Part shown: piece by piece, positions 20,961 to 55,733 of the stretch
Position numbering within the stretch: position 1 is the first letter of the stretch
Layout of the letters: each line of letters begins with the position of its first letter
Origin: Cenococcum geophilum 1.58
Lineage: Eukaryota > Ascomycota > Dothideomycetes > Gloniales > Gloniaceae
Assembly: GCA_001692895.1 (NCBI GenBank)
Contig: KV748204.1
Location: 1,578,771-1,642,770 of the forward strand
Direction: 5' to 3'
DNA length: 64,000 bases
Position numbers and translations under genes: made by a program
Notes under the pieces: generated by a model
The model's database searches: none
Seen by the model: the letters and a program-made list of their open reading frames with translations, nothing else
What the model was told of the DNA's origin: nothing

Positions 20961-23900
20961 ATGGGTCAAGGATACTCCCTTACAACGCTCTCTGCTGGCT
21001 CGGCTGGCATCGATGTCCCAGAGCTGGCTGATCTCACATACGAGAAGTCTCTCGGAAATGCGCGTTTCATGAAGTCCATCAGAGCACGACACAAAGACGG
21101 CCTCGTGGTTGCGAAGGTAGTTATGAAACCATATTCGAGCATGAAGCTTGACGAATATGTCCGGGTTCTTCTAAGTACAGCATCCGGTTCATTTTTAATT
21201 TGTGCTGGTTCTTGGGTTGCTGATTTGACGTCTAGACGAAAGAAAGGTACTTGCTGATGTTCCAAATGCTCTGGGATACCACCGCATCTTGGAAACGAGC
21301 ACAAATGGATATTTAGTCCGGCAATACATTCATAGTTCGTTATATGATCGCATGAGGTATGTTTTCAAATATTTGTCTTGAACTGCAGCTGATGCACACA
21401 GTACTCGGCCATTTCTCGAGGACATTGAGAAGAAATGGCTCTCGTTCCAACTACTATGTGCTGTCCGTGATTGTCATGCTCGGAACATATATCACGGTGA
21501 CATAAAGACGGAAAATTCATTAGTTACTTCCTGGAACTGGTTGTATCTATCAGACTTTTCTTCGTCGTTTAAACCTACTTATCTCCCAGAGGACAATCCT
21601 GCAGACTTTTCTTTTTATTTTGACACCTCTGGGCGTCGCACATGCTATTTGGCACCGGAGAGGTTTTTATCTGCTGGAGCACAGCCCGGAGAGACAGGTG
21701 TCACCTGGGCGATGGATATTTTCAGCGTTGGGTGTGTGATTGCGGAGTTATTCCTAGAAACCCCTATCTTCTCATTGAGCCAGCTGTTTAAATATCGCCA
21801 AGGTGAGTATGAGCCTGAACACACACACCTCAGCAAAATTCACGATAAAGATATTCGCGAAATGGTCTCCCACATGATCCAATTAGAGCCTGAGTCGAGA
21901 TATTCAGCGGACGAGTATTTAAACTTCTGGCGTCACAAAGCCTTCCCAGATTACTTCTACGGATTTCTTCAGCAGTACATGTACACCATTACGGATCCTA
22001 CCTCAGGTCGAAGACCAGTGACTGCAGGAACCGAGAACCTTGGAGAATCCGATGACCGGATTGAGAAGATCTATAACGACTTCGACAAGATCTCATACTT
22101 CTTGGGTCAGGAGAATGGAAAAGAGCCAAGCAGAGCACCCCAACCTACCTCCAAATTAGACAATGACCTCTTCCCACTTTTTATCAACATACCGAACTAC
22201 CAGCACCAAGCCTCGCCTACTTCAGGAAAATCGGTAGATGACGGAACTCTCATCTTCCTCACTATTGTTGTATCCTCCCTAAGGGGCACAGCTAGGGCAT
22301 CTGCTCGCATTCGCGCATGTGAACTATTGCTAGCCTTCGCGGAAAGAACCACAGATGAGGCAAAACTTGATCGTATTCTACCATACGTGATGACACTCTT
22401 GAACGATAAATCAGACCTAGTAAAGGTAACAGCACTTCGCACTTTGACTCAGCTTGTACGTATCCCTTTTCGTCCAACTTCACTTTATTTTCTTTATTTT
22501 TAGCAAACTTACTGTGAAACAGCTTGCTCTTGTCTCCGTTGTCTCGCCAATTAACGCATACATCTTCCCAGAATACATACTTCCAAGACTCCAGCCCTTC
22601 GCGCCTGGATCGCCGACGAAACCAAGTGCCCTGGTAAGAATGACATATGCCTCTTGTATGGCTACATTGGCCAGCACCGCATCTAGGTTCTTGGATATGA
22701 TGCAGGCACTACGTGCTGACGGGTCTTTACCCACCAGCGATCCTGAAGCTGAAGATGACAGTATGAGTCATTCTGTGTATCAAACTCTTTTTGATGTAGC
22801 TCGAGACGACCTTGTATCACAATTTGAAGTCCAGACTAAAGCCCTTTTGACAGACAGCGACTCGGCTGTCCGACGAGCTATGCTAGGATCTGTCTCGACT
22901 TTGTGTGTATTTTTTGGAAGCACTAAAGCGAACGACGTTATACTAAGCCATCTGAATACCTACCTCAATGACCGCGATTGGATGTTGAAATGCGCTTTCT
23001 TCGAGACTATCGTTGGTGTAGCAATATATGTTGGGGGTCCAAGTCTTGAAGAATTTATTCTGCCGTTAATGGTTCAGGCACTGACGGACCCGGAGGAGTT
23101 TGTTGTGGAAAGGGTCCTGAGATCGTTCTCATCTATGGCAGAGCTTGGTTTGTTCCAGCGATCCAAGACCTGGGAATTGGTTGATATCGTCGGACGCTTC
23201 ACAATGCATCCGAACATTTGGATTCGAGAAGCCGCCGCACATTTTATATCCTCTGCTGCAAAGTTTCTGTCGATTGCTGATACCCACAGCATTGTCCTTC
23301 CTCTCATCAAAACCTATCTTAAAGTGCTTCCTTCGGATCTTTCTGAATTGAGGCTTCTAGATTCGCTGAAGAAGCCATTACCAAGACTGATTTTAGATAT
23401 GGCTTCGACCTGGGCCATGAAATCTGAGAAAGGGCTGTTCTGGATACCAGCGAAGCAGCAACGAACCTTCTCTTTTGGATCTGCTGAAGATTCAATACTA
23501 ACAGTTTCTGCCAAAAACCTTGGGCCAAAAGCTCTCAGCCGATTGTCGAAGAATGAAGAGGATGACCAATGGCTCACTCGTCTGCGGAATGCTGGTATGG
23601 GCGTTGAAGATGAGTTTAAGCTTGTAGCTCTCAGAGAGTTCATTTGGCGGGTAGCTCACCGCAGACGAAAAGACGATCCCGATACGGTCCCCTCAAATTT
23701 CAACAACATCATTGCATTAAAAGACCTAGATATCATTCCTCAAACAGTTTTGTTTGATAATGATAAGGAGGTCTTTGAAAAAGCACAAGTCAAAGATGGG
23801 GAAACTTCAGCAAACGAGGAGAGGCAGCCCCGTACAATTGCTGACGCTTTGCTTGACGCGTCCACCTCTGAGGATGGTCACCTGTCTCATCGAAAGAGGC

Positions 23901-25870
23901 TTCATGCAAATACTCAGGTCGACAAACTAGTACGAGGTGAGACTGGCATGAGAACGAGTTCTACACCGACTCTACCTAGCCTATCGTCATCGCCTGGCGC
24001 ACTACGATCAGCTCAAGACTCGCCTTCCTCTGATGTTGAACTTCGTCGTACCTCTCTTCAAGTACCTAGATCGGTACCCAAAGGCAATGATTCTCCTGGC
24101 GGACAATCTCCAGTTAGCTCCATCGGCGGTATCACCCTGGGCGAACATAGTCATGTTGTTCGGCATAGGAATAGCGCCATAAGTCTGTTAAATCCCAACG
24201 ACAACAAGGCTCTTCCTGAGACTGGAACAACTTCGACGAATGCTTTCGGTAAGGTTGACGGTGCAAGCCAACGCGACTTCATGGCAAGAGGTCGGCAGCA
24301 GTCCCAGCTTGCAGTTGCCCAAGAACAGCACCGGAAGAGCCCTTCGAGGATCAAGTACAAAGATGCGCATAACTATACTGGCAATGATCCTAGTATTTTG
24401 AAACTACTAGACTCTCTTTATTTAGAGAACTATCCAGTTGATGAGGTTGAGTTTGGGATGCAGATACAACCAAATAGCAGGCGTCTACCCATTAAGCGTG
24501 GTAACGGTCAAGCATCCTCATCCACCAATCCATGGCGCCCTGAAGGAACACTAGTGGCTATGATGGGCGAACATACCGCTGCTATTAGCCGTGTTCTTGT
24601 TGCGCCAGATCACTCGTTCTTTATTACTGGGTCTGACGACGGTTCCGTCAAAATCTGGGACTCTGGGCGTTTGGAACGAAATATTGCACATCGATCCCGA
24701 CAAACTTACAGACTGGCTGAGAGTACGAAAGCCTCAAGCCTCGTGTTTGTCGAAAATACCTACTGTTTCGTATGTACGGGTACTGATGGCAGTATCCACG
24801 TGGTCAAAGTGGATTACAGCCAAGTGCAAGGTGGGACGAAATACGGAAAATTGAAAGTTCTACGGCAACACCAACTTCGTCATGGCGAGTATGCTGTTTG
24901 GTCTGAGCACTACAAGAGCGAAACTCAGTCAACGTTGGTTTTGGCCACCAATACTTCGCGAGTTATTGCCTTGGAGTTGAGAACAATGGCCGAGCTCTAT
25001 GTGCTTCAGAACCCTCTGCATCACGGTACACCAACCTGTTTTTGTATCGATAAACGACATCACTGGCTACTTCTAGGCACTACTCATGGTGTGATAGATC
25101 TCTGGGATCTTCGATTCAAGCTGCGGCTTAAAGCCTGGGGCTTCCACGGCTCATCTCCTATACATCGGATAATTCTTCAGCCAGTTCGATCACGCAAAGG
25201 CAAGGTATACATCGCAGGCGGTACCGGCCAAGGTGAAGTAACGGTCTGGGATCTAGAGAAGCTCCTCTGCAAGGAAATCTACCGCACAGGTTTGAGCAAG
25301 GATAGCCCCAAAAGCATGACATTGATTGATGTGGATGAAGAAAGGGCAGGTGGCATGCTAGGCCGCTTCGCTACATCACTGGAGCCTACAAGTAGCACAA
25401 GCATCAATCGTGGTATCCGATCCCTCGCGATAGGCACACAACCTCCCGACGATGGAAGCGATCCAAAACAATTCTTCCTAGTCACTGCGGGCCCTGATTG
25501 GAAAGTCCGATACTGGGATACTGCTCATTATGAAGCGTCCATGATTGTCAGCGGCCTAGAACTAGAGGAGTCTAAGCCGCAATACAACATCAGCCAGCCG
25601 AATCAGGAGACCATTGTTGTTACTGAGCTGCTGTCACAGCCACAAGGCCAGCAGTCGTCGACTTCCAACGTCCGAGATAGCAGCCGAACCCCTAATACGT
25701 CAGCGAGGAGGGGTTCTACAAAGCCGTCTAGGTCGTCTATTATTTCCTTGCAGCAGCAACACCTGTTGAGAAGTCATCTAGATAATATTCTTGATGTAGC
25801 TTTATTGGAGTATCCTTATGGTATGATTATATCGGTGGACAGGTCTGGCATAATTTACGTGTTCCAATAG
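20961..25870 (+). CDS. VPS15: VPS15 / PIK3R4 protein kinase-like regulatory subunit of PI3-kinase VPS34
   Basis: Four exons (20961-21174, 21236-21356, 21402-22455, 22523-25870) give 1,578 aa. It anchors and regulates VPS34 in vacuolar sorting and autophagy. The start MGQGYS is a myristoylation signal (Gly2, Ser6). The kinase domain (about 25-310) has YHGDIKTEN with Asp145. The DFG position reads DFS (163-165), a common Vps15 divergence. APERFLSA follows. HEAT-type helical repeats fill about 390-750 (for example AVRRAMLGSVSTLCVFFG). A Ser/Pro-rich linker precedes C-terminal WD40 repeats from about 1130 (FFITGSDDGSVKIWD, GVIDLWDLRF, KVRYWDTAHY). Intron 1 uses a GTACAG donor at 21175, needed to give VLL-NERKVLADVPNALG. 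This is the largest gene in the window. Confidence 0.95.
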
Positions 25871-28854: not shown

Positions 28855-29068
28855 TATGGGTATGGCTTTGCGACTTGCGCGAATTGGCTGGGCTTTTAGT
28901 CTTGCGTTCTAGTTCCCAGAATCCAGGCCGTATGTAAGAGCGTCCAAAATAATGGATACGAGGCTGTAGGTTCCTTGATCAAGGATGAGTTTAGCTTTGG
29001 TAGGATCTCCACTAGTGGAGGTTCTTGGGGAGCAAAGCGAGAAGTTCGGCCTTCGATCAACTACAGTG
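28855..29068. repeat. left flank of the array; partial copy of unit-tail sequence
   Basis: 28855-28950 (GGGTATGGCTTTGCGACTTGCGC...) reappears with changes at about 31757-31850, inside the tail of copy 1. Weaker similarity continues towards the junction octamer at 29070. Little RIP damage is seen here. Either the array begins with a truncated tail, or FIP1 promoter DNA was copied into the first junction. Confidence 0.6.
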
Positions 29069-29146
29069 GTGTTCACGGCTCGGCTGAGCGCCCGCTCAGT
29101 CGCTGAGCCGCACGTGATACATACGACCCCCGTCGACATTCGCGGA

Positions 29147-29181
29147 TGTCCACGGCCGAGCCTGCAGCCAAGCCGTGGACA
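29147..29181. repeat. inverted repeat at the unit start
   Basis: TGTCCACGGC (29147-29156) and GCCGTGGACA (29172-29181) form perfect 10-bp arms around a 15-bp spacer. A second imperfect palindrome lies at 29077-29109 (GGCTCGGCTGAGC / GCTCAGTCGCTGAGCC). Paired arms next to the junction are what a tyrosine recombinase binding site would look like; that role is inference. Confidence 0.7.
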
Positions 29182-29485
29182 TCTTTGAATGTCTTTACCC
29201 CTACTAATCGAGTCGCTGATGCGCGCGTACTATTGGCCTATTGGCCCAGCCGTGCGCCCGTTTATTACCCTATGCGGTAAGGTTACTTATCCGGTAGGTA
29301 TGCTTTCTCTACCTCTCCTCCCTAGTCTATGTCTGCGTATATAGGAAAATAGGAACCCCCCCTTAGGGCGCAGCTTCTCTAGCAGCGTCCTATATATCTT
29401 AAAAATGCTATTAATTAGTTGCGTAAAGATTAACGTCGCAAATAATGCCGAACTACGCGCTAACGCGTAGAGTATCTTTACCCTT

Positions 29486-31690
29486 ATGCGTTCCAAGAGA
29501 CCTAAAAATATGTCTCTAAATTATAAGCCAAAGCAGAAAGAGTTTAAGGTAAGTAGGTAGGTGCTTTATAAAGTAGTATATTTATAACTAACGCGTGTCT
29601 TCCTAGGCCTTTTATAAGCGGAAGCAGTACTATAACGGCGATACCATTATAGAAGAGAAGCTACTTCTTTTCCTTGTTAAGAAGGTTATAGGCTAGCCAC
29701 TAAAAGTAAAAAGCCGTAAGGCTAGTAATAACGTGCCCTAGGATAAGACGCGGCTCTCCTAGCGCTTAGTTTACGGCTATATTACTACCCTAACGGACCT
29801 CTACTAGATGTAGAAGGGTATAGAAATAAACAGCTACTAGTCCCCGCGGGAGAATAATGTTAGGGATTACCTAAAGGTTTTATAATAGAGGAACGCGTAG
29901 CGGGAAAAGGAGCAGTTTATAAATAAGGGTAGGAATACGCTACTTAACGGATATATAGAGGACGAGTTTAAGAGCGTCTACCGCAAGCTATAAGCCCGCG
30001 GAAACTCCTTACTAAAATACTACCTCCGTACGCTTATAGATATCCTACTAAGCCACTATATACTTACCTATAGCGGCAATAGGCGCTCCGCCGAGATCTT
30101 AGACCTATTTACTTTTAAATTTAAGGGGGAAGGTTTTACGCGCTATATACCCCTAATATTTACTATATACGCTAGTAAGTAGAACTAGTATAGCTACCTT
30201 AAAACTATTAGAGCTCTATATAATAAGAAGCCGCTTATCTATATACTTAGTGGGCTAGCTTTCTACCTCTTATACTACTAGGACCTTAGCAATAAGCCGT
30301 TCCTAGACTTTAGTAAGTAGTTAGCGTAGTATAATATCCACCTAATTAAGAGCAGCGCTAGGGACTATAAGACGGCCTTCTCGTATAACTTACAGCGGAA
30401 GTAGGTTATTAAGGTATTTTAAGCCATTAGCGTCTTTTTATAGAAGAAGACCTATATTAAGCGAAGCGCTAGCGCTAAGATAGTAGAGCTAAAAGGGGTT
30501 AGTAAGGACCAGATTAAATACGCTAGTAGGTAAAATTAGAAGCAGATAGTCGGCTGCTACTTAAACTCGCTGCCGTAGGAGTTTATACAGACAATAGCCG
30601 GCTATTTACCGTAGATAGGCTGCTTTAAGATTTATAGGGCAAGCGTTGCCCCCCCTAATATACTACTGTCGACGATCTAGCCAGAGCTAGACGTCTAGAA
30701 GGGTTAGTTTAGCCCTTAAGTTAGCTAGGTTAATAACCTTATAGCTATAGGCGCTATAAACCTCCTATTTTATCTTTGGGAGGTTATTCTATAGGACTTA
30801 GTAGTCCTCCACAAGATATTCCTAAGTAGCCCTATATAGAACCACCTAGTCTTCTAGTATAAGGCCTATCTACCCTTTATACAGAAGGTCGAAGCCTACC
30901 TATAGTAGGAGGAAAAAGGCCCTAGCTAGCTATTAATACTCTACTAGGCCGTGCTAGCTATTATAGACCGCTTAAAGACTATAGACGCCTAAGCACGCGA
31001 GCTATAGGCATTATTTAACTATATAGCCGAGTTCTAGTAGGCACAGTCTTTGTAGCTTTAATTGCTTACATCTAGCAGCCTTACCTTTTAGCTTAAGGTC
31101 CCTTTAGTATCTATATATTTATGTTTAACAGCACACCTACCAACGGTATATTTACTAATGGTATGTCTACTAGCGCCTTTATCTATTACGGAATTAAGTT
31201 AGGATATATTGGCCTAGGTAAGCACTATAGCTTCCCCTTTACTGGCGCCGCTGTAGCTATAGCTACAGCTATAGCCGCAGTAAGGGCCTAAGCCTAAGCA
31301 GCCGCCTAAGCAGCCGCCCGTATATCGTATATGCTATATAGTAAAGTCCGTACAGGCCCTTTAGCGCAAGTAGACTAAAGGGCTTAAAGGTAATCCTTTT
31401 ATAGTAGCGCTAGATTCTAAATAGGGTAGTAAATAGTAGGCTAGCTAGCAGAATAAGCTCTAATAGTACTCCCTACAGCTTAAAGTTATTAAGGAGATTA
31501 GGTAGGTCGCGTAGGCCTAAAGGGTTAGTAAGGAAGCGGCTATATAGTAGGTTAATTAATAGTAGAAGTAGATATAGTGCTCGCTAGATTAGCTTTATAA
31601 ACGGCTTTAAATAGGTAAAAAAGCTTTAAAATAGTATATATATCTAACTTCTAAGGCGTCTCTTAAAGCCTTGTATCTTATCTAGCCCTT
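29486..31690 (+). pseudogene. Crypton-type tyrosine recombinase, RIP-inactivated (copy 1)
   Basis: Exon 1 is 29486-29548 (MRSKRPKNMSLNYKPKQKEF-K). A 58-nt intron follows (GTAAGT...CTAAC...CTAG, 29549-29606), then a second exon in one frame from 29607. Interruptions are TAG/TAA where Gln fits, as expected of CpA-to-TpA change. Recognisable blocks: AFYKRKQYYNGD; a core resembling the Ndc10_II/CBF3 domain (FTFKFKGEG, LSGLAFYLLYYWDLSN); KKTYIKRSASAKI where HxxR is expected; GCYLNSL with the candidate nucleophile Tyr (30558-30560); and a Gln/Lys-rich C-terminal coil. A 1-nt deletion near the end removes the normal stop. No indel is seen in the core. Not functional. Confidence 0.85.
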
Positions 31691-32036
31691 AGGTCTTATT
31701 TTTAGTTGCGGTCTTCTTTAGGTGGGTCCTTAATATCGGTAGCGGGCGCCTAGCTATGGGTATGCGTAAGCTTTTGCGACTTGCGCGGATATGGCTGGGC
31801 TTCTTGTCTTGCGTTCTCAGTTCGCGTAGAGTCCTTAGCAGCTGTATGTATTAGCGTTCCATCGGTATTAAAGGGGGACGTTACGTCGCGGTAGTTGTTT
31901 ATTAGCGATTCCCGATCGAGTTTGGCTTATGGGTAAGGATCTATATACGCGCTAAGTGGACGGGGCCTTTTGGTAGCAATTATAACTTATAGCGGCTGAT
32001 TTAGCTTCTGCATTGATCCGTAAGATCATACTATTG

Positions 32037-35021
32037 GTGTTTAGGTTTAGGCTCGGTCGTACTGCGCTCCGCTTAAGTCTTTCAAGCAGCCGTGAATATA
32101 TGATCCGTCTATTAATACGCGGGATGTCTAGATCGCGCAAGCCTACTGCTACGCCAGTGGCCATCTATTGAATGTCTTCACCCTACTAATCGGTGCGCCT
32201 GCATGCGCGCGTACTATTAGCCTATTGGCCTAGCCGTACCCCTTTATTTACCCTATGCGGTAAAATTACTTATCTAGTAGGTAATGCTTCTCTACCTCTC
32301 CTCCCTAGTCTACTATCTGCGTAATTAGGAAAATAGGGACCCCCCCTTAGGGCGCAGCTTCTCTAGCAGCGTCCTATATATCTTAAAAATGCCATTATTT
32401 AGTTGCGTAAAGATTAATGTCGCAAATAATGCCGAACTATGCGCTAACGCGTAGAGTTATCTTTTACCCTTATATATTTCGAGAGACCTAAAAATAACGT
32501 CTTTAAAAATTATAAGCTGCTGAAGTAGAAAGCAGTTTAAGGTAAGTAGGTAGGTGCTTTATAGAGTTAGTATACTTATAAACTAATACACGTTTTTCTA
32601 GACCTTTTTATAAGCGGAAGTAGTTCGCTATAACGGGAATACCTTTACGGAAGAGGAAGCTACTTTCTTTTCCTTATTAAGGGAGGTTATAGGCTAGCTA
32701 CTAAAAGTAAAAAGGCCGTAAGGCTAGTAATAATATGCCCTAGGGGACAAACGCGGCTCTCCTAGCGGCTTAGTTTACGGCTATATTACTACTCCTAATA
32801 GAACTTCTATTAAATATGAACAGGTTATAAGAATAAATTAGCCACTAGTTTCTGCTAGGGAGGATAATATTAGGGATTACCTAAAGGTTCTATAACGGAG
32901 GAGACGCGTAGTAGGAAAAGGAGTAGTTTATAGATAAGGGTAGGGAATATACTGCTTAATAGATATATAAGAGGACTAGTTTAAGGAGTATCTACCGCGA
33001 GCTATAGGCCTGCAGAGACTCCTTACTAGAATACTACCTTTATATACTTATAGATATCCTACTAGGCTACTATATACTTACCCGCGGTAGTAATAGGCGC
33101 TCCGCCGAAATATTAAACCTATTTACCTTTAAGTTTAAGGGGGAAGGTCCTATGCGCTGTATACCCCTAATATTTACTATACGCGCTAGTAAGTAGAACT
33201 AGTATAGCCGCCTTAAGACTATTAGAGCTCTATATAATAAGAAGCCGCTTATCTATATACTTAGCGGGCTAGCTTTCTACCTCCTATACTACTAGGACCT
33301 TAGCAATAAGCCGTTCCTAGACTTTAGTAAGTAGTTAGCGTAATATAATATCCGCCTAATTAAGAGCAGCGCTGGGGACCGTAAGACGGCCTTTTTGTAT
33401 AACTTATAATGGGAGTAGGTTGCTAAGGTATTCTAGGCTATTAGCGTCTTTTTATAAAAGAAGACCTATATTAGGCAAAGCGCTAGCGCTAAAATAGTAA
33501 AGCTAAAAGGGGTTAGCAAGGACCAGATTAAACGCGCTAATAGGTAGAACTAGGAGTAAATAGTTAGCTATTACTTAAACTTGCTACTACGGGAGTTTAT
33601 ACGGACGATGGCCGGCTATTCGCCGCAAATAGGCTGCTTTAAGATTTGTAGGGCAAGCGTCGCCCCCCCTAATATACTACTGTTGACGATCTAGCTAGAG
33701 CTAGACGTCTAAAAGGGTTAGTTTAGCCTTTAAATCGGCTAGGTTAACAACCTTACGGCTATAGGCGCTATAAACCTCCTATTTTATCTCTAGGAGGTTA
33801 TCCTATAGGACTTAGTAGTCCTCTATAAGATATTCCTAAGTAGCCCTATATAAAACCACCTGGTCTTCTAGTATAAGGCCTATTTACCCTTTACGCGGAA
33901 GGTTAAAGCCTACCTATAGTAGGAGGAAGAAGGCCCTAGTTAACTATTAATACTCTACTAAGCCGTGCTAGCTATTACGGACCGCCTAAAGACTATAAAC
34001 GCCCAAGTACGTAAGCTATAGGCGTTATTTAACCATATAGCTAAGTCCTAGTAGGCGCAGTCTTTATAGCTTTAATTACTTATATCTAGTAGCCTTACCT
34101 TTCGGCTTAAGGTCCCTTCGGCATCCGTATATTTATATCTAACGGTATATCTACTAACGGCACGTCTACCAATAGTACGTCTACTAGCGCCTTTATCTAT
34201 TGCGGAATTAAGCTAAAATATATTAGCCTAGGTAAGCACTATAGCTTCCCCTTTACTGGCGCCGCCGCAGCTATAGCTATAGCTATAGCCGTAGTAAGGG
34301 CCTAAGCCCAAGCAGCCGCCTAAGTAGCCGCCCGTATATTATATGTGCCGTATAATAAAGTCTATATAGGCCCTTTAGCGCGAGTAAACTAAAGGGCTTA
34401 GAGGTAATCCTTCTATAGCAGCGCTAGATTCTAAATAGGATAGTAAATAGCGGGCTGGCCGGTAGAACGAGCTCTAATAGTACTCCCTATAGCTTAAGGT
34501 TATTAAGGAGATTAGGCGGGTCGCGTAGGCCTAAAGGGTTAGCGAGGAAGCGGCTATATAGTAGGTTAATTAACAGTAGAAGCGGATATAGTACTTGCTA
34601 GATTAGCTTTATAAACGGCTTTAAGCGGGTAGAAAAGCTTTAAAATAGTATATATATTTAACTTTTAAGGAGTCCTCTTAAAGCCTTTATCTATAGCCCC
34701 TTAGGGGCTTATTTTAGTGCGGTATAAGTTTAGTAGGGTACTTATACAATAGCGGCGCCTAATTTAAAACGCAAATATCTCTATTAACCTATGGCTAATT
34801 CTTACCATCCTAGTGCGAGTAAAGAGCCCTTGGACAGCTCTACGCATACTATTTAACGGGTATTAAGAGCGCGACATTGCTGCGGCGTTGCTGGCGATTA
34901 AAGATTGACTGTAGATATAGGGTAATATCTATATAGCGCTAAGCGCACGGGCCTCCTGCCTACTAAATTATGACTTAGCGGCTGATTTAGCCATACAAAT
35001 CGAACCATAGACATACTATTA
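32037..35021 (+). mobile_element. Crypton-like unit, copy 2 (with recombinase pseudogene)
   Basis: 2,985 bp, same order as the other copies. Its first half (about 32280-33000) has many one-base insertions relative to copies 3 and 4 (for example doubled bases in runs), so the recombinase frame is broken there. The start codon has become ATA, and the HxxR motif reads YIRQ. The second half aligns without gaps. Its tail carries the palindrome AGCCCCTTAGGGGCT (34695-34709), also in copies 3 and 4. Confidence 0.82.
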
Positions 35022-37961
35022 GTGTTTACAGCTTAGCTAAGCGCCCGCTTAGTTACTGAGCCGCACGTAATATATACGACCCCCGTTAACATTCGCGGAT
35101 ATCTACGGCCAAGCCTATAGCTAAGCCGTGGACATCTTTAAATGTCTTTACCCCTACTAATTAAGTCGCTAATACGCGCGTACTATTGGCCTATTAGCCC
35201 AGCCATACGCCCGTTTATTTACCCTATACAGTAAGGTTACTTATTTAGTAGGTATACTTTCTCTACCTCTCTTCCCTAGTCTATATCTGCGTATATAGGA
35301 AAATAGGAACCCCCCCTTAGGGCGCAGCTTCTCTAGCAGCGTCCTATATATCTTAAAAATGCCATTAATTAGTTACGTAAAGATTAACGTTGTAAATAAT
35401 ACTAAACTACGCGCTAACGCGTAGAGTATCCTTACCCTTATGTGTTCTAAAAGACCTAAAAATATATCTCTAAATTATAAGCCAAAGCAGAAAGAGTTTA
35501 AGGTAAGTAGGTAGGTACTTTATAAAGTAGTATACTTATAACTAACGCGTATCTTCCTAGGCCTTTTATAAGCGGAAGCAGTACTATAACAGCAATACCA
35601 TTATAGAAGAGAAGCTACTTCTTTTCCTTGTTAAGGAGGTTATAGGCTAGCCACTAAAAGTAAAAAGCTGTAAGGCTAGTAATAACGTGCCTTAGGATAA
35701 GACGCGGCTCTCCTAGCGCTTAGTTTACGGCTATATTACTACCTTAACGGACCTCTACTAGATATAGAAGGGTATAAAAATAAATAGCTACTAGTCCCTA
35801 TAAGAGAATAACGTTAGGGATTACCTAAAGGTTCTATAATAGAGGGACGCGTAGTAGGAAAAGGAGTAGTTTATAAATAAGGGTAGGGATACGCTACTTA
35901 ACGGATATACAGAGGATGAGTTTAAAAGCGTTTACCGCAAGCTATAGACCCGCGGAAACTCCTTACCAAAATACTACCTCTATACGCTTATAGATATCCT
36001 ACTAAGCCACTATATACTTACCTATAGCGGCGATAGGCGCTCCGCCGAGATCTTAGACCTATTTACCTTTAAGTTTAAGGGGAAAGGTTCTACGCGCTAT
36101 ATACCCCTAATATTTACTATATACGCTAGTAAGTAGAACTAATATAGCTACCTTAAAACTATCGGAGCTCTATATAATAAGAAGCCGCTTATCTATATAC
36201 TTAGTAGGCTAGCTTTTTACCTCTTATACTACTAGGACCTTAGCGATAAGCCGTTCCTAGACTTTAGTAAGTAGTTAGCGTAGTATAATATCCGCCTAAT
36301 TAAGAGCAGCGCTAGGGACTATAAGACGGCCTTCTTATATAACTTATAGCGGAAGTAGGTTACTAAAGCATTTTAAGCCATTAGCGTCTTTTTATAGAAG
36401 AAGACCTATATTAGGCGAAGCGCTAGCGCTAAGATAGTAGAGCTAAAAGGGGTTAGTAAGGACTAGATTAGATACGCTAGTAGGTAAAACTAGGAGCAGA
36501 TAGTCGGCTACTACTTAAACTTGCTGCCGTAGGAGTTTATACAGATAATAGCCGGCTATTTACCGTAGATAGGCTGCTTTAAGATTTATAGGGCAAGCGT
36601 TGCCCCCCCTAATATACTACTATTAACGATCTAGCCAGAGCTAGACATCTAAAAGGGTTAGTTTAGCCCTTAAGTTAGCTAGGTTAACAACCTTATAGTT
36701 ATAGGCGCTATAAACCTCCTGTTTTATCTTTAGGAGGTTATCCTATAGGACTTAGTAGTCCTCCGTAAGATGTTCCTAAGTAGCCCTATATAGAACCACC
36801 TAGTCTTCTAGTATAAGGCCTATCTACCCTTTACGTGGAAGGTCGAAGCCTACCTATAATAGGAGAAAGAAGGCCCTAGCTAGCTATTAATACTCTACTA
36901 GGCTATACTGGCTATTATAGACCGCCTAAAGACTATAGACGCCCGAGCACGCGAGCTATAGGCGTTATTTAACTGTATAGCCGAGTTCTAGTAGGCATAG
37001 TCTTTATAGCTTTAATTACTTACATCTAGCAGCCTTACCTTTTAGCTTAAGGTCCCTTTAGCATCTATATATTTACGTCTAACAGCATACCTACCAACGG
37101 TATATTTACTAATAGTACGTCTACTAGCGCCTCTATCTATCACGGAATTAAGTTAGGATATATCGGCCCGGGTAAGCGCTATAGCTTCCCCTTTACCGGC
37201 GCCGCCGCAGCTATAGCTATAGCTATAGCCGTAATAAGGGCCTAAGCCTAAGTAGCCGCCTAAGCAGCTGTCTGTATATTGTATATATTATATAGTAAAG
37301 TCCATACGGGCCCTTTAGCGCGAGTGGACTAAAGGGCTTAAAGGTAATCCTTCTATAGTAGCGCTAGATTCTAAATAGGGTAGTAGATAGTAGGCTAGCT
37401 AGCAGAATAAGCTCTAATAGTACTCCCTACAGCTTAAGGTTATTAAGGAGATTAGGTAGGTCGCGTAGGCCTAAAGGGTTAGTAAGAAAGCGGCTATATA
37501 GTAGGTTAATTAATAGTAGAAGCGGATATAGTGCTTACTAGATTAGCTTTATAAACGGCTTTAAGCGGGTAAAAAAGCTTTAAAATAGTATATATATCTA
37601 ACTTCTAAGGAGTCCTCTTAAAGCCTTTATCTATAGCCCCTTAGGGGCTTATTTTAGTGCGGTATAAGTTTAGTAGGGTACTTATATAATAGCGGCGCCT
37701 AATCTAAAACGTAAATATCTCTATTAACCTATAGCTAATTCTTGCCATCCTAATGCGAGTAGAGAGCCCTTAAACAGCTCTACGTATACCGCTTAATAGG
37801 TGTTAAAAGCGTGACGTTACTGCGGCGTTGCTGGCGATTAAAGATCGACTGTGGATATAGGGTAATATCTATATAGCGCTAAGCGTATAGGCCTCCTACT
37901 TACCAAATTATAACTTAGCGGCTGATTTAGCTATATAAATCGAACCGTAGATATACTATTA
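35022..37961 (+). mobile_element. Crypton-like unit, copy 3
   Basis: 2,940 bp from junction octamer (TGTTTACA, 35023) to the next (TGTTTACG, 37963). Heavily RIP-mutated throughout. It contains the best-delimited recombinase pseudogene (35440-37621) and a palindromic possible terminator AGCCCCTTAGGGGCT at 37635-37649, 13 bp after the stop. Confidence 0.87.
35440..37621 (+). pseudogene. Crypton-type tyrosine recombinase, RIP-inactivated (copy 3)
   Basis: This copy fixes the gene structure. Exon 1 is 35440-35502 with ATG intact, the intron 35503-35560, and exon 2 35561-37621 ends TCC-TCT-TAA. Exon 2 is exactly 686 codons plus stop, so the frame is 707 codons in all with no indel, interrupted only by TAG/TAA at likely Gln positions. 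The recombinase histidine is Tyr (KTYIRRSASAKI). Tyr in YYLNL near 36510 is kept. The product would be DNA-binding and nuclear; family knowledge assigns such proteins cut-and-paste circle excision and integration without target-site duplications. Confidence 0.87.
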
Positions 37962-40900
37962 GTGTTTACGGCTTAGCTAAGCGCCCGCTTAGTCGCTGAG
38001 CCGTATATAATATATACGACCCCCATTAACATTCGCGGATATCTACGGCCAAGCCTATAGCCAAGCCGTGGACATCTTTAAATGTCTTTACCCCTACTAA
38101 TCAAGTCGCTAATACGCGCGTACTATTGGCCTATTAGCCCAGCCATACGCCCGTTTATTTACCCTATACGGTAAAGTTACTTATTTAGTAGGTATACTTT
38201 CTCTACCTTTTCTCCCTAGTCTATATTTGCGTATATAGGAAAATAGGAACCCCCCCTTAGGGCGTAGCTTCTCTAGCAGCGTCCTATATATCTTAAAAAT
38301 ACCATTAATTAGTTATGTAAAGATTAACGTTACGAATAATGCCGAACTACGCGCTAACGCGTAGAGTATCTTTACCCTTATATATTCCGAGAGATCTAAA
38401 AATACGTCTTTAAATTATAAGCCGAAGTAGAAAGAGTTTAAGGTAAGTAGGTAGGTGCTTTATAGAGTAGTATACTTATAACTAATACACGTTTTTCTAG
38501 GCCTTTTATAAGCGGAAGTAGTACTATAATAGTAATACCGTTATAGAAGAGAAGCTACTTCTTTTTTTTATTAAGGAGGTTATAGGCCAGCCACTAAAAG
38601 TAAAAAGCCGTAAGGCTAGTAATAATATGCCCTAGAATAAGACGCGGCTCTCCTAGCGCTTAGTTTATGGCTATATTACTACCCTAATAGACTTCTACTA
38701 GATGTAGAAGGGTATAAGGATAAATAGCTACTAGTCCCCGTAGGAGGATAATATTAGGGATTACCTAAAGGTTCTATAACGGAGGGACGCGTAGTGGGAA
38801 AAGGAGTAGTTTATAGATAAGGGTAGGGATATACTACTTAATGGATATATAGAGGACGAGTTTAAGAGTGTTTGCCGCGAGCTATAGGCCTGTAGAGACT
38901 CCTTACTAGAATACTACCTTTATATACTTGTAGATATCCTACTAGGCTACTATATATTTACCCGCGGTAGTAATAGGCGCTCCGCCGAGATCTTAGACCT
39001 ATTTACCTTTAAGTTTAAGGGGGAAGGTCCTACGCGCTATATGCCCCTAATATTTACTATATACGCTAGTAAGTAGAACTAATATAGCCGCCTTAAGACT
39101 ATTAGAGCTCTATATAATAAGAAGCCGCTTATCTATATACTTAGCGGGCTAGCTTTCTACCTCCTATACTACTAGGACCTTAGTAATAAGCCGTTCCTAG
39201 ACTTTAATAAGTGGTTAGCGTAGTATAATATCCGCCTAATTAAGAGCAGCGCTAGGGACCGTAAGACGGCCTTCTCGTATAACTTATAGCGGGAGTAGGT
39301 TACTAAGGCATTCTAGGCTATTAGCGTCTTTTTATAAAAGAAGACCTATATTAGGCGAAGCGCTAGCGCTAAAATAGTGAAGCTAAAAGGGGTTAGCAAG
39401 GACCAGATTAAACGCGCTAGTAGGTAAAACTAGGAGTAAATAGTTAGCTACTACTTAAACTCGCTACCGCGGGAGTTTATACGGACAATAGCCGGCTATT
39501 TGCCGTAGATAGGCTGCTTTAAGATTTATAGGGCAAGCGTTGCCCCCCTTAATATACTACTGTTAATAATCTAGCTAAAGCTAAACATCTAAAAGGGTTA
39601 GTTTAGCCTTTAGGTTGGCTAGGTTAACAACCTTACGGCTATAGGCACTATAAACCTCCTATTTTATCTCTAGGAGGTTATCCTATAGAACTTAGTAGTC
39701 CTCTATAAGATATTCCTAAGTAGCCCTATATAAAACCACCTAGTTTTTTAGTATAAGGCCTATCTACCCTTTACGCGGAAGGTTAAAGCCTACCTATAGT
39801 AGGAGGAAGAAGGCCCTAGCTAGCTATTAATACTTTACTAGGCTATACTAGCTATTATAAACCGCCTAAAGACTATAGACGCCCAAGTACGCAAGCTATA
39901 GGTGTTATTTAACTATATAGCCAAGTCCTAGTAGGCGCAGTCTTTATAGCTTTAATTACTTATATTTAGCAGCCTTACCTTTTAGCTTAAGGTCCCTTTA
40001 GTATCCGTATATTTACGTCTAACAGTATACCTACTAACGGTACGTCTACCAATAGTACGTCTACTAGCGCCTTTATCTATTACGGAATTAAGCTAGAATA
40101 TATTAGCCTAGGTAAGCACTATAGCTTCCCCTTTACTAGCGCCGCTATAGCTATAGCTATAGCTATAGCTATAGTAAGGGCCTAAGCCCAAGCAGCCGCC
40201 TAAGTAGCCGCCTATATATTGTATATGCCGTATAATAAAGTCTATATAGGCCCTTTAGCGCGAGTAGACTAAAGGGCTTAGAGGTAATCCTTTTATAGCA
40301 GCGCTAGATTCTAAATAGGGTAGTAAATAGTAGGCTAGCTGGTAGAACGAGCTCTAATAGTACTCCCTATAGCTTAAGGTTATTAAGGAAATTAGGCGGG
40401 TTGCGTAGGCCTAAAGGGTTAGCAAGGAAGCGGCTATATAGTAGGTTAATTAACAGCAGAAGCGGATATAGTGCTCGCTAGATTAGCTTTATAAACGGCT
40501 TTAAGTAGGTAAAAAAGCTTTAAAATAGTATATATATTTAACTTTTAAGGAGTCCTCTTAAAGCCTTTATCTATAGCCCCTTAGGGGCTTATTTTAGTGC
40601 AGTATAAGTTTAGTAGGGTACTTATATAATAGTAGCGCCTAATTTAAAACGCAAATATCTCTATTAACCTACGGCCAATTCTTGCCATCCTAGTGCGAGC
40701 AGAGAGCCCTTGGACAGCTCTACGTATACCACTTAACGGGTGTTAAGAGCGCGACGTTGCTACGGCGTTGCTGGCGATTAAAGATTGACTGTGAATATGG
40801 GGTAATATCCACATGGCGCTGAGCGCACGGGCCTCCTGCCTACCAAATTGTGACTTAGCGGCTAATTTAGCCATACAAATCAAACCGTGGACATACTATT
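37962..40900 (+). mobile_element. Crypton-like unit, copy 4 (with recombinase pseudogene)
   Basis: Column-for-column alignable with copy 3 at an offset of 2,940 bp. The pseudogene spans 38380-40561: the first codon is ATA rather than ATG, the intron is 38443-38500, the stop TAA 40559-40561. The array ends where the next junction octamer TGTTCACG (40903-40910) is followed by an unrelated inverted-repeat element instead of a fifth copy. Confidence 0.86.
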
Positions 40901-41404
40901 GATGTTCACGACCAGCTTCACCCCCCCCCTTTAGCAAGCGCTGCGAGATTTTAAATTCGCTACGCGTATCCAACCTCGCTTAATTGCTACTAGCCGTACG
41001 TAGTACCTGTAGCGAACGGCTGTNGCCACACGCAAGGACCTTTTTGGTTGCCCTAGAGAAACGCCTTGGTTGGCTAGGGGAATTAAATTAAAGACGTACG
41101 CTTCCTCTTCTCCCCCTTCTCCCACCGTAACTACGCCTCCCTTGTGGCCGCCAGAACGCGAATACAACGCTGTCTCTGCAGAGAGGTCNATGAAATTTAG
41201 CAATATCATACGGGTGGAAACCTCACGATATCTGGTGAAGATCACGACACTGCGGGATCGCGACGTTCTTGCAGCCAAGCATATGGCTTCGCTACAATTA
41301 CTATGTACAGCTGGCGGCAATCAAGCGAGATTGGATGCGCGTAGCGAATTTGAAATCTCGCAGCGCTCGCTAAAGGGGGGGGGGTGAAGCTGGTCGTGAA
41401 CATC
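40901..41404. mobile_element. 504-bp terminal-inverted-repeat element
   Basis: The two ends are inverted copies of each other for about 118 bp: GATGTTCACGACCAGCTTCA at 40901 and its complement ending at 41404, continuing through a poly-C/poly-G run and AGCGCTGCGAGATTT. Most mismatches put T or A on the left arm (CAAATT/TAAATT, GCGCAT/GCGTAT), as if RIP hit only that side. No target-site duplication is evident. Two N calls (41024, 41190) lie inside. The interior ORFs are mirror images with no known family. Confidence 0.75.
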
Positions 41405-42321
41405 GCTGTATGGTGGGCCAACCGCCAACGCCCAAAATTTACTTACAGTCGCTTCGGAAAAAGACGATCAAATGTCAGAAACCATGATCAACCACCGAAT
41501 CCTCGCCTGTTTGAACCTTTTTTCTATACTCGCGCATGAGAACACCCATCCTGCATGCTAATGTATCGCTGTCGCCTATATCTCGAAGCCATTTAAAGCC
41601 GATATTATTTCTTATTTTAGTTAGCGCCATAACGCATAGGAGGAAAGCTAAAGCACCTAAAAATACTATAAAGAACACTTCTAAAGCGCCTAAAGAAGTA
41701 GACCTTACTATTAAACCTATACTACCTATACCGACACCTCTTTATATTATAGAATAGCCCAAAGATTTTTTAAGCCTTTATCCTAAATATAAATATTTAG
41801 TAATATCCTAGCTATTCCATTTAGAGCCTTTAAATACTAAGTATTTATTGCTTAAAATATATATTAAGCTATAAACATTATAGCCTTTAATCTTTCTGGC
41901 TTAATTAATTAACTACTATTATTGCGTTATTAAATCCGAAGGATCCTATAATACCTAAAGAAAGTAAACGATATAGATAAATAATGCGAAGTAAAGAAAA
42001 TAATAGAAGTATAGTTAAAGCATAAACGAAAGGCTTAAAGGGTTAATCTTAATGTTAAATATAAGGCCGCTATAACTATTAATATATCCACTAATACTAA
42101 AAACGCTAAAATTACTATAGTTATTTAGACGGCGCTTTAAGCAGTAAATATTTTAACTAAAGTAGTAGCTAATAAATAGGTAGAGTTCTTTAGTAAGGAT
42201 TATAATAATATAGTAGAGGAAGCTATTAGTAAAAAGAAGGTGTTAACTACTACTAAAATATAGAAAAGAGGCTTCTAAATGGCGTAATTATATAGAAGCT
42301 AAAGGTAAATGTCTATATATA
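41405..42321. repeat. RIP-degraded repeat DNA, unassigned
   Basis: The first 200 bp (to about 41600) look barely mutated and may be old host sequence. The rest is TA-rich with stop-ridden Lys/Leu-rich reading on the plus strand, typical of RIP-destroyed transposon coding sequence. I cannot name the element. Confidence 0.5.
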
Positions 42322-47785: not shown

Positions 47786-48208
47786 TATAACGGAACCTTA
47801 TAGCAAGTACTACGGTAGGCTCGTTAATGGGCTAGGTATATAGGTAATGCAAATTAAAGTCAACAACGTAATAATAACTAGTGGAGTGGTTACCTAATAG
47901 ATTAACTCTAATTGTATTCTAAAAATCACTATAAGGAAGGAACTATCTAGATAGGGACTAAGGGTCCTTAAATACACAACCGTACTCCTATAAAATCCTT
48001 CTTATATATAATATACGTATTATATATAAGGTATGTAAGTTCCTCTTATTCCTCTTATTTAATATATAGTATGTTATATAACCTTAGTTACTATTCCTCA
48101 TTACATAGCTCTACCGGATCTATCTTAGACCGTGCTTTTATTAACCAACTAGCTTCTTCTAACTCTTCTCTAAGTAGTTATAATATTGTACTTAAAGCGT
48201 CCGTAACA
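47786..48208 (-). repeat. left (3') LTR of the gypsy element
   Basis: 423 bp; matches the right LTR over its length, with differences nearly all C/T or G/A. Confidence 0.9.
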
Positions 48209-51200
48209 CTATCTCCCTTCTCTCTATCTTCGTCCTTAAAGATTTCTAGCATCTCCAAGTCGTTTACTAGAGGTATAATGTCCGCCTAATTAATTTAGTT
48301 AATGTCATTACTTATTATACCTAAAGCATCTTCTTCTTTACACGCGCAACGTCGTGCCCGCACTATTACTGCTATATTATTGCTTAGTAAAATCATACTA
48401 TCTCCGTGTTCTCGTTATACGAGAAAGGGGTTAATTTATATTGCGTTGGCGAGTCCTTTATCTTAGCAACCCTCCTCTTATTCGGAGTGCACCAAAGCAA
48501 ATATTTAATCGTCCTGCGATGTTCGCTCTACTTCTAACGCTAAGTATACGCGTCCTATAACTCCTAGTAGTCTTTAAGTTCCCTAAGTAATTTATTATAG
48601 GGTCTCGTGTTTAATCTACGGCTGCGAAGCTTAACGGTAATCTAGCGCAGGCTCTTGCCAAGCTTAAGCGTTCCCATAACGCTAAGCAGAAGGCCCTAAA
48701 TACTTGCATTACGGCGTCTACTCAGCTACTTCGTCTTAAGAAAGTTCGTAAGAAGGTCCGTTCTAAGGAGTAAAAACTTATAAAGTAAGGTCTTTAGGAA
48801 CTTAGTAATAAGAGAACCAACTCTCTTCCTATAAAGGGAATAACTCTAAGTAGTTCGGTAGTCGCTCTTCCTAGGTCCCCCTTAGGTAACTTATTTTTTA
48901 GCGATTCTTCTTTATTAATGTTGCCTAACCTACTTTCTTCCGATACTCCTATACCTTTCTTATAACATTCTTTAAATTCTCTAGTAGCTCCTAAGTAGTC
49001 TTATTATAGCCTATCCACTTTACCTTATACTATGTTTTATCGTTAATATCCTTATAGCTAACGATCCTTAAAACTTACTATTTATCTTCCTCTTGTCCTC
49101 TATATATGTCTGCCTTATAGACTAGTAGCTTAATATTCCCGTATACTAGCTCTAGTATTACAATATATTATATAGGGTAGATTTTTATTTTAGCTAGTAG
49201 GTTTAACTTAAACGTGACCGGTGAAATTTTCTGCGTAATTTTAAAAGGTCCTAGTCTAACGTAGTTTAACTTCTTACTTAGTCGTTAACTCTTAAAATTT
49301 TTATATAATAGCCACACTTTATCTCCCTCCTTAAGATCTAGTCCCTTAGATCTCTTAGCATTATAGTACCTTTTTATTTTCTCTTATACTTCCTTTGCTA
49401 ATTCTATAAGGTCTATATAAAGATTTATTAATGTCTTTATTCTTTCTTTAGCTGTGCTACTCATTTTCTTTACTTAATATAGCGATAATAATGTTCTCGG
49501 CTTATATCCGTAATTTGCCTTAAATAGTAACATACCTATTCCTTCTTAAGGTGTTGCGTTATACGTAAACTATATAACTAGTAACAACGATACCCAATTA
49601 TTCTATACGTGATTGACATAATATCTTAGATACTGCTCTAGTATCTAATTTAATCTTTCCGTTTAACCGCCTATCTGCGGATAATATACAGTGAAAGTTA
49701 CTGCTTGAACTCCTTACTCCGCTAAAAATACCTTCTAGAATACTACTACGAATCTTAGATCTCTATCCAATATAATTTTACTTAGTGCTCTATATCTTAC
49801 AAATACTTCTTTAATATAGATTCTAGCGATATCCTCTGCTAAGATTTCTTCTATATAGGCTATAAAGTATCCCTACTTCGTAAGCTTGTCTACTATTACT
49901 AAAATCGCGTTATAATCCTGTCCAGTAATAGGGTCTCTTAACTTTAGTAGCTTAATAATAAAGTCCTATAATATAACCTCCTATAGTCTCTCTGGTATTT
50001 TAATAGGTTATAGCCCTCTATATAGCTTATACCTCGTTAGTTTATTTCTTTAGCAATCTAAATACTCCTTAGCGACCTTCCTAGCTATCCTCTAGATTCC
50101 ATTAATAATGTACTCCTCTTAGAGTCTTAATACTAAGCCCGTGGCTCTATTATATCCTTAAGTTAGTCCCTTATAGAAGTCTTCTATAAACTACTCCGCT
50201 ATACTTCTTGGGATATACTTTACTTCTTAGTTTTCGTATATATCCGACTATAGATCTTCTAGCTATACTTCTAAAATTCTTTATACCTAAAAGCTTTTTA
50301 GTAACTTATAAACTCTTTTTAGCTTATCTTCTTAAGTTACTGCGATTTTCGGATAATTATATCTAATTAACCCGTCTATGTCTCTTTATAGTAAAGCCCC
50401 TAATAGCTTCTTGTCGTTTTATAATTCAGCCTTTTAACTTAACGTATTGGCCCGCGTATTGTCTATACCCTTGGTATACTAAATCTTAAAATAGTATTCT
50501 ATAAGTATCTCTACCCATCTAACCTGTCTTTAGTTAAGTTCCTTTATTATTAAAAATCCTATTAGGTTCTTATAATCTATTTTAACTATAAATAGTTTCT
50601 CTATACCTTATAAGAATGCCCTTTATTTCTTTAGTGCTGTAATTATACCTAATAACTCTTTATTATAGATATCGTAGTTTAACTCTAGTGGTGTTATTTT
50701 CTAACTATAGTATGCTACTAGGTGCCATCCATCTAAATACTTTTATATAAAGTATGCCCCTAGTATAAAGTCTAATACATTTATCTCTATAACCGTTTTT
50801 AGTCCTAGTTAATAGATCTTAAGAACTAGCTCTTAAGTAAACAACTCTTTAATTTTCTTAAAGAGTCCCTACTATTCCTCTCCCCATACCTATAGTTCTT
50901 CTTTCTTTATTAATCGCGTAAGTAGTTTAATATCTTTTAACCACTACGCTATAAACCTTCTATAGTAATTATAAAACCCTAGGAATAATCTTAACTGCGT
51001 AACATTCTCTAGTTCTTACTAATTTACTATAGCCTCGATCTTCTTTAGATCTATACTAAGTTGGCCTAGTTTAATAATAAATCTTATAAAATCGGTCTTC
51101 CTAGTAAAGAACTCGCATTTCTTAATTGCTACTAGTATCTATTCTTCTTATAGTCTCTTTAAAACCTATTTAACGTATTCTCCGTATTCTTTCTTAGCTA

Positions 51201-54200: not shown

Positions 54201-55260
54201 GTAATTCTAACCATCTTTATAATCCCTCGCGAAGTAACCTTGTTTTCCGTAATTTATATAAGCTCCGTCTTTAAACCATTAACTTTGCTATAAAGTCCGC
54301 CTAAACGTCTTCTACTGTTAAGATCCCTAGTTTAGCCTCTGCTTCTTAGTCCTATAATTACTAAATTCTTAACCTCTAGGTTTTTATAGTTTCTTACTCC
54401 ATCTCTTATAGGCTTCTTTAGTACTACTTAGGTCCATTAGCTCTGCGCCATACCATAGTTTCTAACTTAGCTTTAGTCGTTACGTACTCTGCGTCTTATA
54501 TAACTATAGAACTCTATCCTAACCTCTCTTAGTCTATTCCCTTTAGTAGATCCTATTATTAATCTTTATCGCTTAATCTATTAGTTCCCTTAGGGTGTCC
54601 GCATCTTCTATTAGGATAATTATATTTTAAACTTTAGCCTTAAGTCCTTACTTATACTGTGCCATAAGCGCCCTATTATTCCACTTAACTTATATTGCTA
54701 ATATTTAAAACTACGTTATATACTTAATTGCTAAGGTTCATTGCGTAATATCTTAGAGTTTTCTTTCCGCTATAGCTACTGCCTCTAGGTCTCCAAATAT
54801 TTACGTAAGTTATTCTATAAATCCGTTCTAGCTTAAAAATATAAACCGTACCTCTTGGTTTATAGTTATTATTCCATTTACTTATATTTCTATAAGGTAA
54901 GGCTTAAACTATTTAAGTACTCTTCCTATTAAGAATAGCCCTGCGTACGCTATTTAATCTATAGGTGTCGCCAGCTTTACTCCCTCTTACGCGACCTTAA
55001 AGTGCATTTATATAAGGAATCCTTTAAGCTTCAATCTCTCTCCTAAAAATCTTTCAATCGATAGTAACTTAACCTTTACTATACCTATCCCATTAATCCT
55101 ATTTTTAAGTGCTGCATTATTCTCTATTAACTAGTTAACTATTTTTTATAATTGTTCTACCGTTATAGGTTGTTATAAGTTAGTGTCCGCTATATTAGTG
55201 TCACCTCCTAACCCTAAAGTAGTTGCCGCCGTCAATGGCGTTATAGTAGCTACTTTTAGT
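48209..55260 (-). pseudogene. gypsy gag-pol, RIP-destroyed
   Basis: Gag begins about 55259 on the minus strand (MPLKVATITPLTAATTL) and includes PSIERFLGERLKLKGFL. Near 51,700 the pre-RT segment reads KIELELGISLRFFLIYKLTK. The RT active site at about 51,217-51,231 reads VYFNNIIIY where YLDD is the norm. Near 49,170-49,270 an integrase C-terminal tail reads KLNYVRLGPFKIT and KISPVTFKLNLL. Order gag, RT, integrase is gypsy (Metaviridae-type). Stop codons are dense; nothing is functional. Confidence 0.82.
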
Positions 55261-55310
55261 GGCATATTATTTAACTTTCTATATTTAATACTATAACTAG
55301 GTAGTAATTA

Positions 55311-55733
55311 TATAACGGAACCTTATAGCAAGTACTACGGTAGGCTTATTAATGGGCTAGGTATATAGGTAATACAAATTAAAGTTAACAACATAATAAT
55401 AACTAGTGGAGTGGTTGCCTAATAAATTAACTCTAATTATATTCTAAGAATTACTACAAGGAAGGAACTATCTAGGTAGGGACTAAGGGTCCTTAAATAC
55501 ACAACCGTACTCCTATAAAATCCTTCTTATACGTAATATACGTATTATATATAAGGTACGTAAGTTCCTCTCATTCCTCTCGTTTAATACGTAGCATATT
55601 ATGTAACCTTAATTACCATTCCTTATTATATAGCTCTACCAAATCCATCCTAGACCGTGCTCTTATTAACTAACTAGCTTCTTCCAACTCTTCTCTAAGT
55701 AGTCGTAACATTATACTTAAAGCGTCCGTAACA
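55311..55733 (-). repeat. right (5') LTR of the gypsy element
   Basis: 423 bp; inside it the gag start lies about 50 bp beyond the LTR edge, read on the minus strand. Confidence 0.9.

Follow-up and report, generated by a model that had tools for sequence, protein, structure and literature searches.

A stretch of 64,000 nucleotides from contig KV748204.1 of Cenococcum geophilum 1.58 (hereafter the window) contains a head-to-tail array of Crypton transposons seated in one end of a short mariner-type miniature inverted-repeat transposable element (MITE). The units are dead copies of CryptonF, the Crypton group of fungi and oomycetes that combines a tyrosine recombinase with a GCR1_C domain and for which a circular intermediate has been proposed (Kojima & Jurka 2011, PMC3212892), and Crypton arrays are common in this genome, not exceptional. 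We regard the structure as real and recurrent, and the mechanism behind it is well constrained by the sequence yet unproven.

The array occupies positions 29069–40901 and consists of four units in direct orientation, each about 2.94 kb long, with borders set by comparing junctions across many loci (Table 1). The spacing is 2984–3014 bp from unit 1 to unit 2, 2940–2970 bp from unit 2 to unit 3 and 2940 bp from unit 3 to unit 4, and no base separates the units at the junctions of units 2 and 3 and of units 3 and 4. An initial annotation of the window, made from the letters alone, had described four Crypton-like units in the same orientation at 28855–40910 with no host DNA between them. The array and its four direct units are indeed present, with the number depending on the assembly, and the absence of host DNA holds for two of the three junctions, that of units 1 and 2 not being trustworthy. 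The start had been placed 214 bp too far to the left; positions 28855–29068 are left flank outside the array and end in the MITE end TA/CAGTG (a slash marks a boundary). The MITE itself had been overlooked, and the copies are dead. The array lies 5 bp inside this element, with TA/CAGTG as its left and ATGTTCACGACCAGC as its right flank, and ends within the same MITE, which extends to 41408.

Table 1. Features of the Crypton array and of the MITE that holds it (positions in the window; contig coordinates in brackets where available).
Feature	Position	Strand	Remarks
Left copy of the TA target duplication of the MITE	29062–29063
CAGTG, outer 5 bp of the MITE left inverted repeat, severed by the array	29064–29068	+	In unoccupied copies (L041–L048) CAGTG is followed directly by ATGTTCACG
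Crypton unit 1	29069–32036	+	Reliable to ~31690
NDC10_II match, unit 1	29823–30869 (C29:1608593-1609639)	+	E 1.9e-41; internal TAG 20, TAA 5
Unreliable stretch across the junction of units 1 and 2	31690–33100		Transversions, scattered indels, noisy left-flank copy at 31761–31857
Crypton unit 2	32037–35021	+
NDC10_II match, unit 2	33038–33883 (C29:1611808-1612653)	+	E 4.0e-35; internal TAG 14, TAA 7
Crypton unit 3	35022–37961	+
NDC10_II match, unit 3	35912–36823 (C29:1614682-1615593)	+	E 2.5e-35; internal TAG 19, TAA 5
Crypton unit 4	37962–40901	+
NDC10_II match, unit 4	38717–39763 (C29:1617487-1618533)	+	E 3.1e-36; internal TAG 20, TAA 7
Remainder of the 512-bp MITE	40902–41408	+	From ATGTTCACGACC through the right inverted repeat with terminal ATCGCTG
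Right copy of the TA target duplication of the MITE	41409–41410

A search of the genome (G000; 177.2 Mb in 162 contigs) with the Pfam profile of NDC10_II, a tyrosine-recombinase-like domain, and with 14 control genomes alongside, matched all four units and found nothing in any of the 14 controls. Reading stops as X gave E-values of 2.9e-42 for unit 1 and 4.5e-37 for unit 4. The stop-masked test that had been suggested for 35440–37621 gave no Pfam match there, nor at 35532–37593, which is one base out of frame, and 35531–37593 does align. GCR1_C is weak in unit 1 (0.0076) and unit 4 (0.00047), both under the Pfam cut-off; these were the two units scanned in frame, unit 3 having been scanned out of frame and unit 2 left out. 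A single-copy relative on contig C17 (L011), which lacks the marks of repeat-induced point mutation (RIP), has an open frame of 682 codons matching both NDC10_II (4e-88) and GCR1_C (4.6e-19). These are the only domains found in units 1 and 4 and L011 in the one frame scanned of each, a DDE transposase not being among them. A database search returned 174 protein homologues, and both domains were present in each of the 40 that we aligned from the 120 listed. The recombinase residues R185, W335 and Y344 occur in all 40, K217 in 39, and H309 and R312 in 38; the spacing of HxxR, W and Y is the same as in Cre. The profile of the 40 homologues matched Ndc10/CBF3A in PDB (1.3e-10), and none of the 40 had a direct match to Pfam Phage_integrase among the families shown. 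The Crypton recombinase core proposed in the initial annotation is thus borne out, and at the family level, judged on sequence, the elements have both the tyrosine recombinase and the C-terminal GCR1_C of CryptonF.

None of the window copies is intact: each of the six reading frames of every unit holds 76–102 stops, and units 1, 3 and 4 are dead because Y replaces the catalytic H and a stop replaces W, the R and Y both being kept. Read directly, the unit ends have no terminal inverted repeats and no long terminal direct repeats, with only an imperfect 9-bp inverted pair nearby, and neither kind of repeat is reported for CryptonF, whose short direct repeats are 4 or 6 bp (PMC3212892). Elsewhere in the genome, stop-free NDC10_II frames of 507–818 codons at C101:304627, C79:592407, C38:1563820 and C137:32855 may represent further Crypton families or domesticated genes. 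The last of these (C137:32855-35648; 587 codons) has a DDE_1 transposase match 1.4 kb away, likewise on its strand, and is a possible composite of the MarCry kind discussed below.

The exact unit-to-unit junction was found 50 times at 28 loci of this genome using a RIP-tolerant pattern, and not at all in the control. It should be noted that the junction, start and MITE-end patterns allowed no mismatch outside their degenerate bases, so that all such counts are lower bounds; those missed include the junction of units 1 and 2 in the window and one junction on C56. Since junctions of this kind occur at 28 loci, the window array is not a chance arrangement, and the earlier expectation that long tandem runs would be unusual does not hold here. 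The same expectation had come with a suggestion to look for single copies and other arrays, and single copies with the same ends were found at L016 and L011, on which grounds we rejected a satellite without mobility. The pattern also located 98 unit starts, 48 following another unit, 21 following TAYARTG (TACAGTG in the window) and 29 following other sequence; among the 25 flanks fetched for this last class, 18 end in TG, or 22 with TA included. The unit junction bears 9-bp inverted arms with eight of nine positions paired, which was equalled by 75 of 20000 shuffles. A second Crypton subfamily, 75–78% identical over the matches, also occurs in tandem (e.g. on C51, C80 and C8). Within the C19 array there is an internally deleted unit of 621 bp with both junctions intact (C19:1893674-1894323; L074/L075), perhaps a non-autonomous Crypton.

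TACAGTG is the outer end of the MITE, which is approximately 510 bp long and reads TA/CAGTGATGTTCACGACC...GTGAACATCRCTG/TA in its unoccupied copies. TA is present on both sides in seven of the eight copies fetched and in the window copy, with lengths of 499–512 bp; in the eighth, L044, a Crypton occupies the right end. It has terminal inverted repeats and the TA duplication, is too short for a transposase gene, and by its ends and the TA probably belongs to the Tc1/mariner superfamily. No autonomous partner was found among the 150 DDE_1 matches scored, looking inside four wider pairs of terminal inverted repeats. Crypton right ends continue into a MITE end at 28 places genome-wide, where 147 MITE ends are unoccupied, and the opposite Crypton orientation was not found at MITE ends by pattern anywhere in the genome. 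With some 175 MITE-end sites among about 354 million strand positions, random insertion would practically never hit them. In five cases two right junctions lie face to face, 474–589 bp apart, and C33 provides a sixth, making six MITEs with a Crypton in each inverted repeat. The left junction, CAGTG/GTGTTCACGG, agrees with the intact MITE end at 13 of 14 bases; the site would therefore be nearly regenerated, and growth by repeated integration is predicted.

The sequence is poor across the junction of units 1 and 2. Between units 1 and 3, 60 of 62 transversions lie past position 2600, between units 2 and 3, 44 of 46 lie inside the first 800 positions, and 31761–31857 is a 79% copy, with eight gaps, of the left flank at 28855–28943. 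Left flank simply mixed with unit tail accounts for 31690–33100 only in part, as many bases fit neither, although the 97 bp do fit the flank. The tail of unit 1 and the head of unit 2 are unreliable, and the count of four is provisional for that reason. Noisy sequence is also found inside other arrays (C19_4 and C56L40_1) and, together with the corrupted junction and its copy of the left flank, might suggest that an assembler had multiplied a single copy or fewer units. We find this scarcely credible, as units 3 and 4 are separated by 10% transitions with no transversion and no indel, the CpA bias of RIP between them is not expected from read errors, and clean junctions occur at 28 loci. The clean units cannot be assembly copies, because their differences are RIP-type changes only.

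Same-lineage units from different loci (window units 3 and 4, C33a, C33b, C56r and C89a) differ by approximately 10–12% transitions and no transversions. When units 3 and 4 are compared, C before A was changed 46 times and kept 19 times, and C before C was changed five times and kept 135 times; the units of this lineage therefore had the same sequence before RIP, bar a few indels. We had considered transversions as a means to tell same-lineage loci apart and abandoned this, because they are lacking in most such pairs. Of 50 outer unit starts, 26 have their first 24 bases unmutated, and of 48 internal starts none does (Fisher p 3.9e-10). The outer right ends of the arrays likewise looked less mutated. 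RIP would seem to have acted on each array as on a single uninterrupted repeat and spared its outer edges, from which it follows that the arrays would predate the end of RIP.

In the account that we consider probable, a circle made by the recombinase would integrate at a TG core with MITE ends favoured, the junction would stay a target, and arrays would grow until RIP killed them, with a contribution from homologous recombination. Recombination would join the end-to-end junction of the Crypton circle (..GACATACTATTG/GTGTTCACGG..) to a target core ending in TG, in this case in the inverted repeat of the TA-flanked MITE (TACAGTG/ATGTTCACG..). Target, polarity and junction sequences are read directly from the loci, and from these the circle and the action of the enzyme are what we infer. 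With the new left junction so close to the intact MITE end, and the same half-sites kept at the internal and right junctions, the locus would remain a target, so that later circles could be added as further head-to-tail units without intervening host DNA; such serial addition is suggested by arrays of mixed lineage and by the 28 array loci. RIP would then strike the array as a single repeat tract, an order of events suggested by the spared edges, and later homologous recombination would duplicate pairs of units in some arrays, including that of the window, judging by shared RIP mutations. Integration and homologous recombination probably both act. The initial annotation had favoured a circle entering the junction of a resident copy, which the exact junctions, the target preference and the mixed-lineage arrays would fit; its alternative, unequal crossing-over, may be partly right too, as homologous recombination appears to have acted without being the sole process.

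Several observations weigh against this account. Same-array pairs differ by 0.00097 transversions compared with 0.00876 in other pairs, and none of 5000 shuffles gave so low a value (35 units from 13 arrays; C17_1 (L011), C19_4, C21_3, C56L40_1, C19_2mini and C2_1 were left out, C33a, C33b, C56l and C6 carried no array label, C33c_2, C5_2, C89a_2 and C56r_3 were partial units, and masking covered unit 1 from position 2600 onwards and unit 2 up to 1100). Among the units fetched, the C89b and C11 lineages were each confined to their own array, for which local amplification is the simpler account. Alternate units that were nearly identical before RIP share RIP mutations, with values of 0.067 for units 1 and 3 and 0.070 for units 2 and 4 of the window, 0.069 for C89b 1–3 and 0.081 for C49 1–3, compared with 0.092–0.116 for the listed neighbours and a minimum of 0.097 among 26 pairs from different arrays; C37 1–3 (0.111) is an exception. 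On C70 there is a two-unit higher-order repeat of 8893 bp with a divergence of 0.044, and duplication would seem to have continued after RIP. Neighbours on C3 (4, 11 and 15) and C19 (3–7) also differ by transversions, which RIP does not make and which would favour integration, but some of these may be assembly noise, because noisy units such as C19_4 exist. To these must be added that the right ends at L003, L008, L010, L025, L037 and L011 and in the second subfamily lie outside the MITE, which is accordingly a preference and not a requirement; that the inverted arms are missing in the second subfamily (four of nine paired); that L011 has D in place of the catalytic H; and that the terminal direct repeats are 2–4 bp (unit end TATTG against TG-ending flanks in 18 of 25; TTG in L011), whereas those published for fungal CryptonF are mostly 6 bp (PMC3212892). 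As a separate observation, a two-unit periodicity can be seen in the window, C49, C89b, C70 and C19 arrays, as if they had grown by dimers between rounds of RIP.

The common and private lineages, the C70 repeat and the RIP mutations shared by alternate units in the window, C49 and C89b would all suit a history in which the recombinase inserts one Crypton per locus and takes no part in growth, amplification being left to homologous recombination alone, by unequal exchange or by homology-driven re-insertion of excised circles. We consider this rather unlikely given that on C56 two pre-RIP lineages adjoin at an exact junction (the neighbours differ by seven transversions, four of which separate the two lineages elsewhere; neighbours on C5 differ by five), and that copies identical before RIP occur in different arrays (C37 with C21, and the window with C33, C56 and C89a), because of which shared lineage needs no local copying. 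Very unlikely, in our view, is the single integration of a ready-made array as a multimeric circle produced, for example, by rolling-circle replication or circle–circle recombination; the absence of transversions within C37 1–3, C21 1–2 and window units 3 and 4 points to pre-RIP identity within arrays and would agree with it, but mixed-lineage arrays such as C56 and the deleted unit in the C19 array would not, and no known replication protein was seen in the unit frames scanned (one per unit).

Both the site preference and the array habit are newly seen for a known kind of transposon. Our literature searches, with subscription journals mostly outside their reach, found no report of Crypton arrays or of Cryptons in MITE ends. 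The window units share the tyrosine recombinase and GCR1_C with published CryptonF elements, and in that description we found no mention of arrays or of a preferred target ('array' does not occur in the main text and 'tandem' occurs once, in a reference; PMC3212892). The same paper describes MarCry-1_FO of Fusarium oxysporum, in which a Crypton is fused to a mariner-type transposon; there, as here, a Crypton is tied to a mariner-type element with TA duplications, but MarCry-1_FO has its DDE transposase inside one element with 16-bp inverted repeats whereas here arrays sit in a MITE too short for one (PMC3212892). Among bacterial integrative elements, Salmonella genomic island 1 (SGI1) integrates at one attachment site and there forms head-to-tail arrays of as many as six, by a mechanism that the report calls unknown; the report also ascribes tandem arrays to SXT/R391; unlike Cryptons these elements are large and their arrays arise upon conjugative transfer (PMC2297512). 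Cassandra retroelements of plants are eukaryotic transposable elements in long tandem arrays, which are ascribed to recombination between long terminal repeats (LTRs; PMC7215508), but Cryptons lack LTRs and their units meet here at the integration junction. Starships of the Pezizomycotina are likewise fungal elements moved by a tyrosine recombinase, although they are giant and cargo-bearing, and arrays and MITE targets are absent from the literature listings on them.

Elsewhere in the window there is a Gypsy-type LTR retrotransposon on the minus strand at 47786–55610, with direct repeats of about 300 bp lying 7.5 kb apart and 92% alike, matches to reverse transcriptase, RNase H and protease between them, and a strong GC skew. 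The gene at 22448–25870 is Vps15-like by its matches, two of which are 98% and 96% identical and are followed by Lepidopterella palustris at 76%.

Crypton integration has so far been argued by analogy with bacterial elements. Here, one genome supplies filled sites, empty sites and internal junctions by the dozen, all in a strict orientation, from which the recombination site, core and target can be defined and tested in vitro. The arrays offer an example of one transposon landing in the inverted repeats of another, and target regeneration would explain simply how tandem transposon arrays can arise in a eukaryote. A more speculative idea, which we think distinctly unlikely, is that integration keeps the target alive by restoring the mariner-type MITE end (CAGTGGTGTTCACG for CAGTGATGTTCACG), so that a Crypton or a whole array could ride as cargo of a mariner-type transposase while the site stayed open to further circles. 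If true, two unrelated enzymes would move one composite element, and MarCry-like elements could arise by this route.

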